DNA of 28,233 bases, taken from a virus. Within the stretch, counting starts at the first letter, position 1. Every line of letters starts with the position of its first letter. This document shows positions 13,028 through 24,609 of the stretch, piece after piece. Below the pieces are notes generated by a model, which saw only the letters and a program-made list of their open reading frames with translations, was not told the origin of the DNA and did no database searches. The position numbers were made by a program, and so were the translations under genes. The DNA is taken from positions 1-28,233 of the IMG/VR virus record IMGVR_UViG_3300044641_005744; one strand, 5' to 3'.

Positions 13028-13633
13028 ATGGCAACCAAACAGACCGTACTCAAGACGCTCGCCCTGCTCTACATGAACTATCCACATGCGACCAATGCAT
13101 CGGAGGAAGACATCAAGCTGCGCGCCGAACTGTGGCTCGACTTGTTCGCTGATGTGCCCGACGACGCGATGGTCGAAGCGGCAAAGCGTCACTGCAAGGA
13201 GGGGACGTTCTTCCCTGCGCCTGCTGAGCTGTTCAAGCACATCCGCGCGATGGAAGAGCTGGCCGATGGCGGCGATGACTGGACTCAGTCGTGGTCGGCC
13301 GTCAAGGGCGCGATTGGACGATACGGCGCATGGGGAACGACGGACGAGGTGCGCAAATACCTGGGGGACAAACTCCCCGCAGCGATGGCCGAAGACACGG
13401 CAACGATCATTCAGCGCCTCGGCTGGCGCGAACTGTGCGGCTTCGACCTCGACCAGGAGGGAATGTGGCGCGCACAGTTCCGCGACGTCTACAACCGCGT
13501 GCGCACGACGCGCATTGAGCGCCAGCGCATGACTCCCGACGTTGCGCGGCTCATCAGCGACATGGCGCAGAAGATGGCCGCGGATCGCCTGCGGCTCAAC
13601 GCGCCGAAGAACGACGAGGAGGAGGGTTTCTAG
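13028..13633 (+). CDS. Replicative helicase loader/inhibitor (G39P-like)
   Basis: A 201-residue protein resembling the SPP1 G39P family of helicase loaders and inhibitors. The N-terminal domain has LALLYMNYPHATNASEEDIK, LWLDLFADVPDDAMVEAAKR, then GTFFPAPAELFKHI, the family's pattern of four helices ending in FPxxAEI. The central region (WSAVKGAIGRYGAWG) and basic C-terminal region (RTTRIERQRMT) would contact helicase. TAGGAG six bases before the ATG gives a clear start, ten bases after the O-like stop. Order O-like then loader is the classical initiation pair. It may load the host DnaB, since no helicase gene is visible here. Confidence 0.75.
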   Translation: MATKQTVLKTLALLYMNYPHATNASEEDIKLRAELWLDLFADVPDDAMVEAAKRHCKEGTFFPAPAELFKHIRAMEELADGGDDWTQSWSAVKGAIGRYGAWGTTDEVRKYLGDKLPAAMAEDTATIIQRLGWRELCGFDLDQEGMWRAQFRDVYNRVRTTRIERQRMTPDVARLISDMAQKMAADRLRLNAPKNDEEEGF

Positions 13634-14553
13634 TGTGGATCATCAGCAACGCCTTAATGAACTCGCTCTCTTCGCTGGCGCAGGCGGGGGAATCCTCGGA
13701 GGACATCTGCTCGGATGGCGCACCGTCTGCGCCGTTGAGCGAGAGCCATACGCCGCAAGCATTCTTGTTCAGCGACAGAACGACGGCCTACTCCCGCCTT
13801 TCCCGATTTGGGATGACGTTTGCACATTTGACGGCCGACCGTGGCGAGGAATTGTTGATGTCGTATCTGGAGGGTTTCCCTGTCAGGACATCAGCGCAGC
13901 AGGACGAGGAGCTGGCATCGATGGCGCACGTTCTGGACTCTGGGTGGAGATGGCACGGATCATTCGTGAAGTACGACCCAGATACGTGTTCGTGGAGAAC
14001 TCCCCAATGCTCACTGCTCGAGGACTCGGACGAGTTCTCGCAGACCTGGCCGAGATGGGGTTTGATGCGCGATGGGGAGTGCTTGGAGCAGTTGACGCCG
14101 GCGCTCCGCATAGACGAGACAGAATTTGGATTGTGGCCAACTCCGACGGTGTGCGGGAACTACAACAGGAAGGGGGCATCGGCGACGAGCGGCGATGGTC
14201 TGGCGACGGCGGTGCGGATGTGGCCGACGCCGATGGCGCGCGATTGGAAGGACAGCGCGAAATCTGGCAATCGCAAGTCGCCGAACCTTGGAGCAGAGGT
14301 GCACTGGCCGACGCCGCGCACGAAAGGCATGTGCGGAGGATCGGGAGCATGGCAGCAGCTGAAGGAATCGACGACGATCGAAGAGGCGCGAATGATGGGA
14401 GCCGGCAATGGTGGGCAGCTGAACCCTACGTGGGTAGAGTGGCTCATGGGGTGGCCGCTCGAGTGGACAGACTTAAGGCCATTGGCAACGGACAAGTTCC
14501 GGCAGTGGCAGCACTCGCATGGCGCATACTCGGAGGTGAATGATGCAGACTAA
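13633..14553 (+). CDS. WPTP-motif protein overlapping the methyltransferase (same strand, +1 frame)
   Basis: A 306-residue open frame on the same strand and over the same DNA as the cytosine methyltransferase, starting at GTG 13633 just two bases before its GTG. The translation is not random. It has SRFGMTFAHL, KYDPDTCSWRTPQ, FSQTWPRWGLMRDGEC, LWPTPTVCGNYN, MWPTPMARDWKDS, HWPTPRTKG and LNPTWVEWLMGWPLEWTDLR. I recognise this pattern (SW-T-Q, TWPR-G-M-G, repeated WPTP, NP-WVEWLMG) from uncharacterised phage proteins. GGAGGG at 13621-13626 serves both starts. Either it is a genuine overprinted gene, or the pattern is a frame shadow that recurs because the methyltransferase is conserved. No enzymatic motif is recognised. 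Confidence 0.5.
   Translation: MWIISNALMNSLSSLAQAGESSEDICSDGAPSAPLSESHTPQAFLFSDRTTAYSRLSRFGMTFAHLTADRGEELLMSYLEGFPVRTSAQQDEELASMAHVLDSGWRWHGSFVKYDPDTCSWRTPQCSLLEDSDEFSQTWPRWGLMRDGECLEQLTPALRIDETEFGLWPTPTVCGNYNRKGASATSGDGLATAVRMWPTPMARDWKDSAKSGNRKSPNLGAEVHWPTPRTKGMCGGSGAWQQLKESTTIEEARMMGAGNGGQLNPTWVEWLMGWPLEWTDLRPLATDKFRQWQHSHGAYSEVNDAD
13635..14543 (+). CDS. DNA cytosine-C5 methyltransferase
   Basis: A 302-residue enzyme transferring methyl from SAM to carbon 5 of cytosine. All core motifs are visible: motif I LFAGAGGG (residues 12-19), motif IV GGFPCQDIS with catalytic Cys83, motif VI ENSP at about residue 121, motif VIII PHRRDRIWIV, a variable target-recognition region rich in ADADGARLEG, and motifs IX-X VDRLKAIGNGQVPAVAALAW. 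It starts at GTG 13635, two bases after the GTG of the overlapping frame. In my hand count of the first 61 codons, 26 end in A or T, against 15 of 62 in the preceding gene, as if third positions are constrained. It may protect phage DNA or supply 5-methylcytosine for further modification (see the TAGT gene). Confidence 0.9.
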   Translation: MDHQQRLNELALFAGAGGGILGGHLLGWRTVCAVEREPYAASILVQRQNDGLLPPFPIWDDVCTFDGRPWRGIVDVVSGGFPCQDISAAGRGAGIDGARSGLWVEMARIIREVRPRYVFVENSPMLTARGLGRVLADLAEMGFDARWGVLGAVDAGAPHRRDRIWIVANSDGVRELQQEGGIGDERRWSGDGGADVADADGARLEGQREIWQSQVAEPWSRGALADAAHERHVRRIGSMAAAEGIDDDRRGANDGSRQWWAAEPYVGRVAHGVAARVDRLKAIGNGQVPAVAALAWRILGGE

Positions 14554-20757: not shown

Positions 20758-21057
20758 ATGTCGGTGATTGAATTATTTGCTTGGCTTGCAGGTGCTGGCG
20801 TGTCGGCCGTGTCCGCGTTCGTGCTGGAGCGATTGAGCGGATTCCAGCGGTTGACTCCGAACGGGAAACAGCTCGTGGCAATGTCAATCGCCGTTGCCGT
20901 CGGCGCGCTGTCGATCGCCGCGCGAGACTATCTCATCGCTCAGCCCGACGTCACGGCGCGCATTGAGCCGTACGCTCAAATGCTCATTGCTGCGGCGTCG
21001 ATCCTCGTGCAGCAGGTCGCGCACGGAATCAACAAGGGAGCCGATAGCAATGGGTGA
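20758..21057 (+). CDS. Holin-like membrane protein
   Basis: A 99-residue protein with an N-terminal span (residues 3-23, IELFAWLAGAGVSAVSAFVL), a second (about 38-56, QLVAMSIAVAVGALSIAARD) and a third, weaker one (about 73-90, AQMLIAAASILVQQVAHGIN). Small size, two to three spans and location directly before a second holin-like gene and endolysin fit a phage holin that opens the membrane at lysis. GGGAGGG lies six bases before the ATG. Confidence 0.7.
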   Translation: MSVIELFAWLAGAGVSAVSAFVLERLSGFQRLTPNGKQLVAMSIAVAVGALSIAARDYLIAQPDVTARIEPYAQMLIAAASILVQQVAHGINKGADSNG

Positions 21058-21280
21058 AACGCAGATGCTGACGTTGCTCACGAACGGCGGCATGCCTGCG
21101 ATGTTCGCGGCGCTGCTCATCTGGACGCTGAAGACGTCAGCGGAAAGAGAAGAGCGGCTGATGCGCAGAGAGGAAAAAGTGCTGGCGAAGCTGGACGAAA
21201 TGTCGCAGACGATCCTGCGAATCTCAACCCAGCTAGACAGCCTCGCGCGCGAGATAGATCGCATGCGCGGGGAGGATTGA
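21050..21280 (+). CDS. BhlA/UviB-type holin-like protein
   Basis: A 76-residue protein with one N-terminal membrane span (residues 10-27, NGGMPAMFAALLIWTLKTSA) followed by a highly charged coiled coil (EREERLMRREEKVLAKLDEM, then LRISTQLDSLAREIDRMRGE). This is the layout of the BhlA/UviB family of phage and bacteriocin holin-like proteins. ATG 21050 has AAGGGAG nine bases upstream and overlaps the first holin by eight bases. The pair probably acts as holin plus accessory holin or antiholin. Confidence 0.75.
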   Translation: MGETQMLTLLTNGGMPAMFAALLIWTLKTSAEREERLMRREEKVLAKLDEMSQTILRISTQLDSLAREIDRMRGED

Positions 21281-21281
21281 T

Positions 21282-21322
21282 CCGCCCACGATGGGGCGGT
21301 AGGTCCTAGCCGCTTTCGCGGC
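21282..21322 (+). promoter_or_regulatory. Two hairpins covering the endolysin ribosome-binding region
   Basis: CCGCCC (21282-21287) pairs with GGGCGG (21294-21299), and GCCGC (21309-21313) pairs with GCGGC (21318-21322) around a UUUC loop. The second hairpin ends two bases before ATG 21325, exactly where a Shine-Dalgarno would be; none is present. Endolysin translation may depend on coupling or be restricted by structure. Confidence 0.5.
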
Positions 21323-21324
21323 GC

Positions 21325-22953
21325 ATGCCATACGGTCAGTTTTCGAACCGAATGAATGATATCCCATACGTCAACCAGCTGGACAACGCGCCGCGCGGAA
21401 ACGACTGTGGACCGGCATGCGTGGCGATGCTCACCGGCAGCGTTGATCCGGCACTGGCAACGGCCGCGACCGTGACCGACTTGTCGAAGCGCTTCGACGT
21501 GGCACAAGACGGCACCACGGCGCGCGACCTCGTGCGCATGGGCGAATATCTCGGCATCGACCTTGTCGCAGACACGTCGGCGCCGTTCCCGTGCATCAGC
21601 CTTGTTGATTACAAGATGCTGCCGCGCAAATACCAGGTGAACGGCGATTTCGGCCACTGGATCGTTCGCCTCTCCGACACCGTCTACCACGACCCGCTCT
21701 ATCGCGGCGATCGCGGGGCAAACATCGTTACGACGAAGGCCGTGCTCAACGCAGCGGAACAAGCCGCACGCCGATGGTCGTCCACCATCCCGAATCGCGT
21801 TCGACTCAAAACGACTATGACTCAAACCTCCGGAAAGGCTCTCATCACCGCGACCGAACGATTCCGCGTCCGATCCGCGCCGAGCACGTCGTCGGGCACG
21901 CTGACCGGTTACTGGCTCCAGCCCGGCCAGCTGTTCGATGTGCTGGGCACAACGACGGCCGAACGCTACACGTGGGGCAAGGTCAGCGTCACAGCCGGCT
22001 CCGTCGTCGTCGGTGATGGCTGGGTGCGCGGCGATGGATGGCGATTCGTGAACACGCCGACGCCTCCGCAGCCGCAGCCTCCGACGCCCGTGCAGGACTG
22101 GCAGCACGCGAAATACCTGCTTGGTGTCTCGTGTCTGAACGACGGCGACGCGGGCATGGACGCTCTCGCGCGCGGATGCCGCAGCGTGCTGTTCATGGAT
22201 AACCTCATGGGCGCAGCAGCGGCCGCTCGCCAGTATCCGGACGCGATCATCGCCGCGCGCTTCTGGTTCCAGAACGCGCCCGATCCGGCGTGGCTTGCCG
22301 ATCACGCGGGAGCCGGCCTCGCCAACATCCCGTCCAACATGTGGACGACATGCGCGAACGAGTGCGACTGGATTTGCTACGGCACGCCCGACGAACTTCG
22401 CCGCCGATTCGAATACGAGCGCGCGTTCTGCAACGCGATGTGGGCGAAGAACCCGTCGCGCAAGCTTGTCATCGGCGAGTTCAGCCACGGCACGCCCGAC
22501 ATCACTAACCCGGCAATCGTGCAGACCTTCAAGGAGACCTACTACGCCTTCGCACAGCAGAACGCCGGCCGCGTCCGCATCGGATGGCACCTCTACACGA
22601 AGGGGAAGCGATTCGCCGATGCTCCTCCCGCGCAGGCGGAGATCGACGCGCCTGAATGGTACGAAGGCCGCGATGCATCGTTCTGGACGCAGTGCGGTGC
22701 GAGCAAGAGCGTTGTGCACTTCTGCGGAGAAACCGGCGTAGAGGCTGGCTCTGGCGGCTTTGCTTGGGCGGGATACTCGGATGAGCAGTTCGCGCGATGG
22801 TGCAGCTGGTGGCTCGACTACCGGCGCAGCAGGCCGGTCGTGCTCAACGGCGCGTGCATCTTTCAGTTTGGCTACCATCCCAATTGGCAGGGATACGACG
22901 TGCGCCGATTCGCAGGAGTGCTTGAAGATTTTTGGAAGGGGAGGCGGTCATGA
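21325..22953 (+). CDS. Modular endolysin: C39-like peptidase, SH3, glycosidase
   Basis: A 542-residue three-domain lysis enzyme. Residues about 12-130 are a papain-fold C39-type peptidase: NDCGPACVAML with Cys28, GHW with His111 and the HDP Asp123 strand. Residues about 165-240 are an SH3-like domain (RFRVRSAPSTSSGTLTG, then WGKVSVTAG and GWVRGDGWRFV), probably binding the cell wall. A Pro/Gln linker (PTPPQPQPPTPVQ) leads to a C-terminal TIM-barrel-like glycosidase with candidate catalytic residues in NEC (Glu346) and GEFS (Glu385), typical of clan GH-A spacing. It follows two holin-like genes and has no signal peptide. No Shine-Dalgarno is present; ATG 21352 is an alternative start. Confidence 0.8.
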   Translation: MPYGQFSNRMNDIPYVNQLDNAPRGNDCGPACVAMLTGSVDPALATAATVTDLSKRFDVAQDGTTARDLVRMGEYLGIDLVADTSAPFPCISLVDYKMLPRKYQVNGDFGHWIVRLSDTVYHDPLYRGDRGANIVTTKAVLNAAEQAARRWSSTIPNRVRLKTTMTQTSGKALITATERFRVRSAPSTSSGTLTGYWLQPGQLFDVLGTTTAERYTWGKVSVTAGSVVVGDGWVRGDGWRFVNTPTPPQPQPPTPVQDWQHAKYLLGVSCLNDGDAGMDALARGCRSVLFMDNLMGAAAAARQYPDAIIAARFWFQNAPDPAWLADHAGAGLANIPSNMWTTCANECDWICYGTPDELRRRFEYERAFCNAMWAKNPSRKLVIGEFSHGTPDITNPAIVQTFKETYYAFAQQNAGRVRIGWHLYTKGKRFADAPPAQAEIDAPEWYEGRDASFWTQCGASKSVVHFCGETGVEAGSGGFAWAGYSDEQFARWCSWWLDYRRSRPVVLNGACIFQFGYHPNWQGYDVRRFAGVLEDFWKGRRS

Positions 22954-23735
22954 ATAAAAAAGAAAACTGGAGAAACCGTATCGTTGGCCATGGGGAGCAA
23001 GCCGCAATTTCGTTCGCAGCAAACCCGCTGAATTGGCGAATCCATCCGAAAGCTCAGCGCGATGCATTGACCGGGATTCTTGAAGACGTTGGCTGGGTTC
23101 AGTCTGTAATTGTCAACAAGACGACAGGGTTCGTGATTGACGGGCATGCGCGCATTGAGGAAGCGCTCAAACTTGGCGACGATACGCTTGTTCCATTCGT
23201 CGAAGTCGAATTGAGTGAGGAAGAAGAGCAGAAAATACTACTCACGCTCGATCCTGTTGCTGCGATGGCCGCAGCTGACAAAACGAATCTTGATTCGTTG
23301 ATGCAAAGCGTCAGCACTGATAGCGAAGCGTTGCAGAAAATGATCTCCGATCTTGCCGATGAACACGGCTTGCATGCCGAAAACGAGAGCCCTTACACGC
23401 ACAAAGTTGAAGCCCCTATTTACGAACCGAAAGGGCCAAAGCCCCCGCTGAGCGCGCTTTCAGACGTGGATCGCTATAACCAGATTTTGATGCGCATCGC
23501 CGAATCGGATGTCGATGATGAAATAAAGAGATTCCTTATCGCAGCTGCGTCGCGCCATATCGTTTTCAACTATGCAGCGATAGCCGAATACTACGCCCAT
23601 GCCGACTCCGCAGTGCAACGGCTTTTCGAAGACAGTGCGTTGGTCATCATCGATTTCGACGCTGCTATAGAAAAGGGCTATGTTCTGCTGAGCAAGAAGA
23701 TGATGGAAATTACCGGGGAGATGCGCGATGGCTGA
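22950..23735 (+). CDS. ParB-like domain protein linked to DNA modification
   Basis: A 261-residue protein. Residues about 15-100 form a ParB/Srx-like domain: AANPLNWRIHPKAQRDALTG, VGWVQSVIVNKTTG, FVIDGHARIEEALKLG and VPFVEVELSEEEEQKILLTL. This is the version common at the N-terminus of phage DNA methyltransferases. The C-terminal half is separate: EAPIYEPKGPKPPLSALSDV, then AAASRHIVFNYAAIAEYYAH and SALVIIDFDAAIEKGYVLL. It overlaps the downstream glycosyltransferase by eight bases. Such ParB-like partners are reported next to TET/TAGT base-modification genes, so a role in delivering the modification is inferred. GGGAGG precedes the ATG. Confidence 0.7.
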   Translation: MNKKENWRNRIVGHGEQAAISFAANPLNWRIHPKAQRDALTGILEDVGWVQSVIVNKTTGFVIDGHARIEEALKLGDDTLVPFVEVELSEEEEQKILLTLDPVAAMAAADKTNLDSLMQSVSTDSEALQKMISDLADEHGLHAENESPYTHKVEAPIYEPKGPKPPLSALSDVDRYNQILMRIAESDVDDEIKRFLIAAASRHIVFNYAAIAEYYAHADSAVQRLFEDSALVIIDFDAAIEKGYVLLSKKMMEITGEMRDG

Positions 23736-24609
23736 TTATGCGGTTTTTGTTCTCACATATGGCAGGCCTGACAATGTAAAAACATACAACATGCTGCGCG
23801 AAAGTGGATACACAGGGAAAATATTCCTTGTATGCAGCAGCGATGACAAACGGCTCTCGGAATATCAAGCAAAATATGAAGACGTGATTGTTTTTAATAA
23901 ACGCGAGATCGAACTTGAGATTGATACAGCGGACAATTTTAAAAATTACGCATCAGTGTTGTATGCGCGCAACGCATGTTTTCGGATTGCCGAGCAGCTT
24001 GGTTATGAGTATTTCATAGAACTAGATGACGACTACGGGAGTATTGTCTATACAGTTGATCACAATTATCACTGGACTAGTTCCAGCATGAAAGCTGACC
24101 GCGTAAAAAAGCTTGATGAAATCTTTGACTTGACGTTTGAATATTTCAAATCTGGCCCATTTGCAACTCTTGCATACAGTCAAAGTGGCGACTGGCTTGG
24201 CGGGGGGGACAAGCCGCATACCATGTTCGACAAACTTGGAGCTCGCCGCAAGGCTATGCAGATCTTTTTCTGCTCAGTAAAAAGGCCATTTGATTTCATC
24301 GGGACACTAAACGACGATGTAAATGCATACGTGAAACACGGCAGAACGGGCAAGCTGTTTATGACTTATCCGTACCTTTGTGTGCAGCAGATGCAAACAC
24401 AGTCGAACGCCGGAGGGCTAACTGAAATCTACAAAGCGATGGGGACTTACGCCAAATCGTTCTATACAGTGATGCTCAGCCCGTCATCTGTGCGCGTGTT
24501 CGCGATGCAAACCTCAAATACAAGACTACATCACATTATCAAATGGGATCGCACTGTTCCCATGATTATTAGGGAATCGCACAGAAAGGTTGACAAAGTT
24601 GGCGCATAA
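23728..24609 (+). CDS. TET-associated-type DNA glycosyltransferase (TAGT)
   Basis: A 293-residue GT-A-fold glycosyltransferase of the TAGT type. It begins ADYAVFVLTYGRPDNVKTYN, the nucleotide-sugar strand typical of the family, then SGYTGKIFLVCSSDDKRLSE, DNFKNYASVLYARNACFRIA, and the metal-binding triad in ELDDDYGS at D100-D102. Later conserved parts are GSGDWLGGGDKPH-like (SQSGDWLGGGDKPHTMFDK), RPFDFIGTLNDDVNAYVKHG and TYPYLCVQQMQTQSNAGGLT. The usual substrate in this family is 5-hydroxymethylcytosine in phage DNA, made by a TET/JBP oxygenase from 5-methylcytosine. The gene is notably AT-rich, which suggests separate acquisition. Confidence 0.8.
   Translation: MADYAVFVLTYGRPDNVKTYNMLRESGYTGKIFLVCSSDDKRLSEYQAKYEDVIVFNKREIELEIDTADNFKNYASVLYARNACFRIAEQLGYEYFIELDDDYGSIVYTVDHNYHWTSSSMKADRVKKLDEIFDLTFEYFKSGPFATLAYSQSGDWLGGGDKPHTMFDKLGARRKAMQIFFCSVKRPFDFIGTLNDDVNAYVKHGRTGKLFMTYPYLCVQQMQTQSNAGGLTEIYKAMGTYAKSFYTVMLSPSSVRVFAMQTSNTRLHHIIKWDRTVPMIIRESHRKVDKVGA

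Follow-up and report, generated by a model that had tools for sequence, protein, structure and literature searches.

DNA cytosine-5 (C5) methyltransferases made of two polypeptides are already known, and the arrangement described here has a precedent in one characterised bacterial enzyme, M.EcoHK31I. The small subunit of this enzyme is reportedly encoded inside the large one, in another reading frame, and both polypeptides are needed for methylation. M.EcoHK31I (YGGCCR; Lee, Kam and Shaw 1995, as cited in PMC3404938) carries motifs I-VIII and X in the large subunit, and its small subunit has motif IX only; the predicted target-recognition domain (TRD) is placed in the large subunit, not in the motif IX subunit (PMC3404938). 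M.AquI (CYCGRG), another two-polypeptide enzyme, is divided in its variable region, downstream of motif VIII, and its second chain carries the distal TRD, motif IX and motif X (PMC3404938).

Phage genes that share one stretch of DNA in different frames are represented by lambda Rz/Rz1, but Rz1 is short and unrelated. An HNH frame lies within a phage methylase of ShiLan (PMC11855218); here too two frames occupy one stretch, but the HNH frame is a homing endonuclease insertion and not a methylase subunit (PMC11855218). The open-licence literature searched yielded no report of the overlap described below in phage methyltransferases.

The locus lies in the window, by which is meant the whole of a 28,233-base virus record from IMG/VR. 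Two same-strand open reading frames (ORFs), M and W, have about 910 bases in common, directly downstream of the gene for a replication O-like protein. The original prediction had described both ORFs, their starts in GTGTG behind a single GGAGGG and their stops ten bases apart, and all of this was confirmed on the sequence. The features are listed below.

13635..14543, + strand: M, C5-methyltransferase catalytic frame, 302 aa, GTG start, motifs I-VIII and X without motif IX (Pfam, PHROG)
13633..14553, + strand: W, WPTP frame, 306 aa, GTG start, proposed TRD and motif IX subunit (phrog_1008; conserved and stop-free at 141 non-redundant loci)
13618..13626, + strand: Shine-Dalgarno-like GGAGGAGGG common to both starts (sequence)
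13633..13637, + strand: GTGTG double start, with the W GTG at 13633 and the M GTG at 13635 (sequence)
13671..13685, + strand: motif I of M, FAGAG (read from sequence)
13869..13886, + strand: motif IV of M, GGFPCQ, with the catalytic Cys (read from sequence)
13995..14006, + strand: motif VI of M, ENSP (read from sequence)
14112..14129, + strand: motif VIII of M, RRDRIW (read from sequence)
14134..14418, + strand: target-recognition-like stretch of W with three WPTP words at 14134, 14221 and 14305 (region-specific rates; M is a neutral linker there)
14419..14457, + strand: motif IX in the W frame, LNPTWVEWLMGWP (in-frame equivalents in L346, L349-L351 and L282/L288; aligned with RLTPRECARLMGF of Dcm)
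14463..14489, + strand: motif X in the M frame, VDRLKAIGN (motif census and position)

Distribution of methyltransferase motifs between the two frames

M matched phrog_363 (8.7e-71) and PF00145 (4.6e-30), the latter over model positions 5-163 of 324 only. Motifs I, IV, VI, VIII and X, previously described as intact, are indeed in frame in M; motif IX is absent from this polypeptide and sits in the +1 frame. The canonical motif order is therefore preserved along the DNA, with only the TRD and motif IX in the +1 frame. W matched phrog_1008 (1.1e-29), and searches with W against Pfam and NCBIfam gave no match. The best conserved block of W, LNPxWVEWLMGWPxGWTDL, corresponds to NPTWVEWLMGWP at 14422-14457 of the window. 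In L346, a single-chain methyltransferase on a Ca. Megaera plasmid, this block immediately precedes motif X within the methyltransferase frame, and in BLASTP RLNPDWVEWLMGY aligned with RLTPRECARLMGF of E. coli Dcm; the W block is therefore identified as motif IX. The three WPTP words reported for W are present, in a stretch that precedes motif IX, where the TRD is placed in C5-methyltransferases. W had been taken for an unrelated, uncharacterised protein; on this motif evidence it is instead the half that M lacks, with motif IX and the TRD, and very probably gives the enzyme its DNA-recognition part.

The N-terminal half of W is weakly constrained beyond staying open and is missing from many distant relatives; no known homologue of this half was found. 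AlphaFold gave a pLDDT of 57 and a pTM of 0.32 for W alone. In a natural fusion of the two parts (L288, see below), the catalytic part was well folded and matched HaeIII/HhaI, most of the WPTP stretch fell below pLDDT 50, and a Foldseek search with the model confirmed the catalytic domain only. Because of this low confidence over the W part, no fold is claimed for W. A PDB search with W returned a single weak match, 3nng (E 0.028), which was taken as chance, and a search with its last 57 residues returned none.

Like M.EcoHK31I, the window has motifs I-VIII and X in one chain and motif IX in the other. The subunit genes also overlap in different frames, as is said of M.EcoHK31I. In the published description, however, the predicted TRD of M.EcoHK31I belongs to the large subunit, whereas in the window only the alternate frame shows constraint over the TRD stretch; W is also longer and usually starts beside M, and the loci are those of phages. 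Since the TRD is apparently placed differently, the window is not filed as a member of the M.EcoHK31I type. As in M.AquI, the second chain has part of the TRD and motif IX, but in the window motif X belongs to M and the two frames overlap over nearly their whole length; a second chain with motif X, as in M.AquI, is found in L194, L283 and other relatives. Both protein families have been recorded, as phrog_363 (M) and phrog_1008 (W), the latter also labelled 'DNA methyltransferase', and for Redbud g51 ('g50 internal gene', KP296794), a locus with the same two families, the depositors annotated both frames. Neither the PHROG nor the Redbud annotation gives a function, a motif IX or a subunit role for W. 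What appears to be new is the scale of the arrangement in phages, the assignment of the TRD to the alternate frame, and the series of overlapping, split, fused and monomeric forms.

Translation starts

The TAG of the upstream gene (13631-13633) overlaps the first GTG by one base, and GGAGGG precedes the W and M starts by 6 and 8 bases, respectively. In E. coli, GUGUG sites are able to initiate both frames (PMC9841429). Most relatives have NTGAATG instead of GTGTG, with M starting at NTG and W at the ATG four bases later (94 of the scored loci); the start codon of M is ATG, GTG or TTG, and that of W is almost always ATG. The family-wide W start is the ATG equivalent to window position 13657, and the upstream GTG of W is backed by relatives such as L012, L017 and L032. 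An extended N-terminus characterises a group that includes the window and L087; in distant relatives, such as those in mycobacteriophages and Paenibacillus phages, W is shorter and opens within the catalytic domain.

Constraint on both frames

Scans of viral contigs with W and, independently, with M yielded 160 loci, and W was in the same register at all 79 scorable loci found with M. Stops were counted at 141 non-redundant homologous loci, with expectations for W obtained by shuffling the synonymous codons of M and those for M by shuffling the codons of W. The W frame contained no stops, against 90 expected over motifs I-III, 249 over motifs IV-VIII and 104 over the TRD (443 in total); M had none in the TRD against 330 expected, and the third frame had hundreds. 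The frequent stops that would mark W as a spurious frame are thus missing, and the lack of excess constraint that would do the same is not seen either.

Selection was found to act differently along the locus. By our own simplified four-class (NN/NS/SN/SS) estimator, which has a non-unit baseline, 29 independent pairs gave 0.11 (0.10-0.13) for M and 0.52 (0.43-0.62) for W over motifs I-VIII, a dNN/dSN of 1.06 (0.84-1.34) for M and a dNN/dNS of 0.29 (0.18-0.42) for W over the TRD, and 0.28 for M and 0.45 for W over motifs IX/X, with a flanking-gene control at 0.73 (0.58-0.87) in the +1 frame and 0.15 in its own. Differences in the TRD fell on M codon positions 1, 2 and 3 in the numbers 332, 170 and 164, these being W positions 3, 1 and 2, and 24 of 29 pairs, against 3 of 44 control gene pairs, had more variation at M position 1 than at position 3. 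This concentration on M position 1, which is W position 3, indicates that M is a neutral but stop-free linker there. Purifying selection in both frames, together with an excess of stop avoidance, identifies the locus as dual coding.

With M neutral and W constrained in the TRD, the M words VANSDG and ADADG are a shadow of WPTP. The original prediction had also mapped VDRLKAIGN onto words of W; motif IX (in W) and motif X (in M, VDRLKAIGN) are adjacent and do not coincide.

Arrangements among relatives

In a motif-frame census of about 430 phage and bacterial loci, 386 had a catalytic frame that continues past motif IX, which itself lies in the +1 frame; in 362 of these 386, the catalytic frame had a recognisable motif X. 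In a further 17 loci, motif IX was in the +1 frame and the catalytic ORF ended before it. In eight of the 17 (L194, L229, L234, L266, L280, L283, L285 and L348), motif X likewise fell in the W frame, a reading made by eye for L229, L234 and L266; these M.AquI-like splits have a truncated catalytic ORF, and WPTP, IX and X all lie in the W frame. They are WPTP genes with no intact methyltransferase frame beneath them, such as the original prediction had proposed to look for, and they show that W does not depend on that frame.

Natural fusions were found in two viral contigs (L282:2377-3459 and L288:2784-4043, the latter of 414 aa), with motifs I-VIII, WPTP, IX and X in one ORF; PF00145 matched their N-terminal halves (L288, 8.5e-47; L282, 2.6e-40). 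In the monomers L346 and L349-L351, a single frame holds the catalytic block, motif IX as a LNPDWVEWLMGYP-type motif, and then motif X; PF00145 aligned over its full length with L346 and L350, up to model position 322 of 324 and, in L346, from position 3. Taken together, the overlapping, split, fused and monomeric arrangements identify W as the TRD and motif IX half of a C5-methyltransferase.

In all four monomers (L346, L349, L350 and L351) a long open stretch bearing WPTP remains in the +1 frame and stops just before motif IX. A P. polymyxa plasmid protein (WP_244944323.1) considered as a further fusion was rejected, being an ordinary M form. The methyltransferases of enterobacterial prophages or phage-plasmids at L340:2781-3839 and L430:794-1846 also have a W frame (QLNPAHSRWLMGFP); they differ by 13 bases in the 170 codons of motifs I-VIII and by 127 in the 125 codons of the TRD, as if the TRD had been swapped as a module. 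At L168, in Mycobacterium phage Llama, W is matched as two separate pieces and two ORFs are annotated for the methyltransferase; a shift of one base appears to have disrupted both frames.

Proposed mechanism and alternative explanations

On these sequence comparisons, M and W are both to be regarded as genuine genes, and as more than two unrelated genes that overlap. The locus is highly likely to encode a two-polypeptide DNA C5-methyltransferase with both subunits encoded by one stretch of DNA in different frames, M being catalytic and W providing the TRD and motif IX; translation of both frames, complex formation, methylation activity and biological role are what we infer. A single Shine-Dalgarno sequence would serve the two adjacent starts (GTGTG in the window, as a rule NTGAATG in relatives), from which ribosomes would produce both proteins. 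M (frame 0) would be the catalytic subunit with motifs I-VIII and X, and W (frame +1) the specificity subunit, whose C-terminal half would give the target-recognition region (WPTP) and motif IX and whose N-terminal half, overprinted on the catalytic domain of M, would provide its start. M would cross the TRD codons of W as an unconstrained linker to reach motif X, and the two proteins would assemble into one active enzyme, with which the phage most likely methylates its own DNA against host restriction. More broadly, a large and mostly unrecognised class of phage C5-methyltransferases probably consists of heterodimers formed by dual coding, in which compensating frame changes would have split the halves of one ancestral enzyme, each then overprinting the other (over the catalytic domain W would have gained a start, and over the TRD M would have gained a linker), and in which target specificity would be set by the alternate-frame protein instead of the annotated methyltransferase.

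The canonical linear order of the motifs along the DNA and the existence of single-chain fusions would also suit a single polypeptide made through two programmed frameshifts, from frame 0 (I-VIII) to +1 (TRD, IX) and back to 0 (X). Such a chain would not require either frame to be open outside its own part, yet W has no stops over motifs I-VIII, where 339 are expected, M likewise lacks them over the TRD, and W has its own conserved start beside that of M; with each frame maintained open outside the part it would contribute, the doubly frameshifted chain is considered unlikely. W could instead be a real overprinted protein with a function apart from methylation, for example in anti-restriction or regulation, and an N-terminal half that lacks a known homologue and is nevertheless kept open would fit this. 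Among the loci examined, however, W was never found away from a C5-methyltransferase; it has the motif IX missing from M, and the fusions join it to motifs I-VIII and X, which makes a separate function very unlikely.

That W might be a mere frame shadow, or an annotation artefact, of a GC-rich methyltransferase gene was one of two options left by the original prediction, the other being overprinting. The conservation of M does explain part of the similarity among W sequences, since shuffled M still scores about 190 +/- 15 bits with a W profile built without the loci tested. The real sequence scores about 400 bits (for the window, 408 against 200 +/- 15; for a Paenibacillus phage, 111 against 17 +/- 9), the W frame is free of stops throughout, W is constrained where M is neutral, which reverses the relationship over the TRD, and W survives at loci with a dead M frame. 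A shadow is accordingly given almost no probability, and overprinting, with W a conserved coding frame under purifying selection, is the option retained.

Annotation of these loci and other features of the window

Depositors have been inconsistent, annotating M, W or both. In the phage records L002, L005 and L171, the W frame alone is annotated ('hypothetical protein') and the methyltransferase frame is left out. Because gene callers retain a single frame, many phage methyltransferases in databases lack half the enzyme, and some records (phPA-G, Vibrio 1.291.O and Sc-Yong805-2) show the 'hypothetical' half only; such enzymes may look inactive when expressed alone. The target specificity of these enzymes becomes testable by swapping or removing W. 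The loci also offer a rare long overlap with its own comparison set of overlapping, split, fused and monomeric forms, in which the division of a protein between two frames can be followed.

Elsewhere in the window, 23728-24606 matched phrog_842 (1.1e-61), labelled beta-glucosyl-HMC-alpha-glucosyltransferase, and adjoins a ParB-like/methyltransferase-like ORF at 22932-23735, which possibly points to further DNA modification in the same phage. A 664-aa ORF at 20884-22878 (- strand) lies opposite a 542-aa ORF at 21325-22953 (+ strand) that has no PHROG match.
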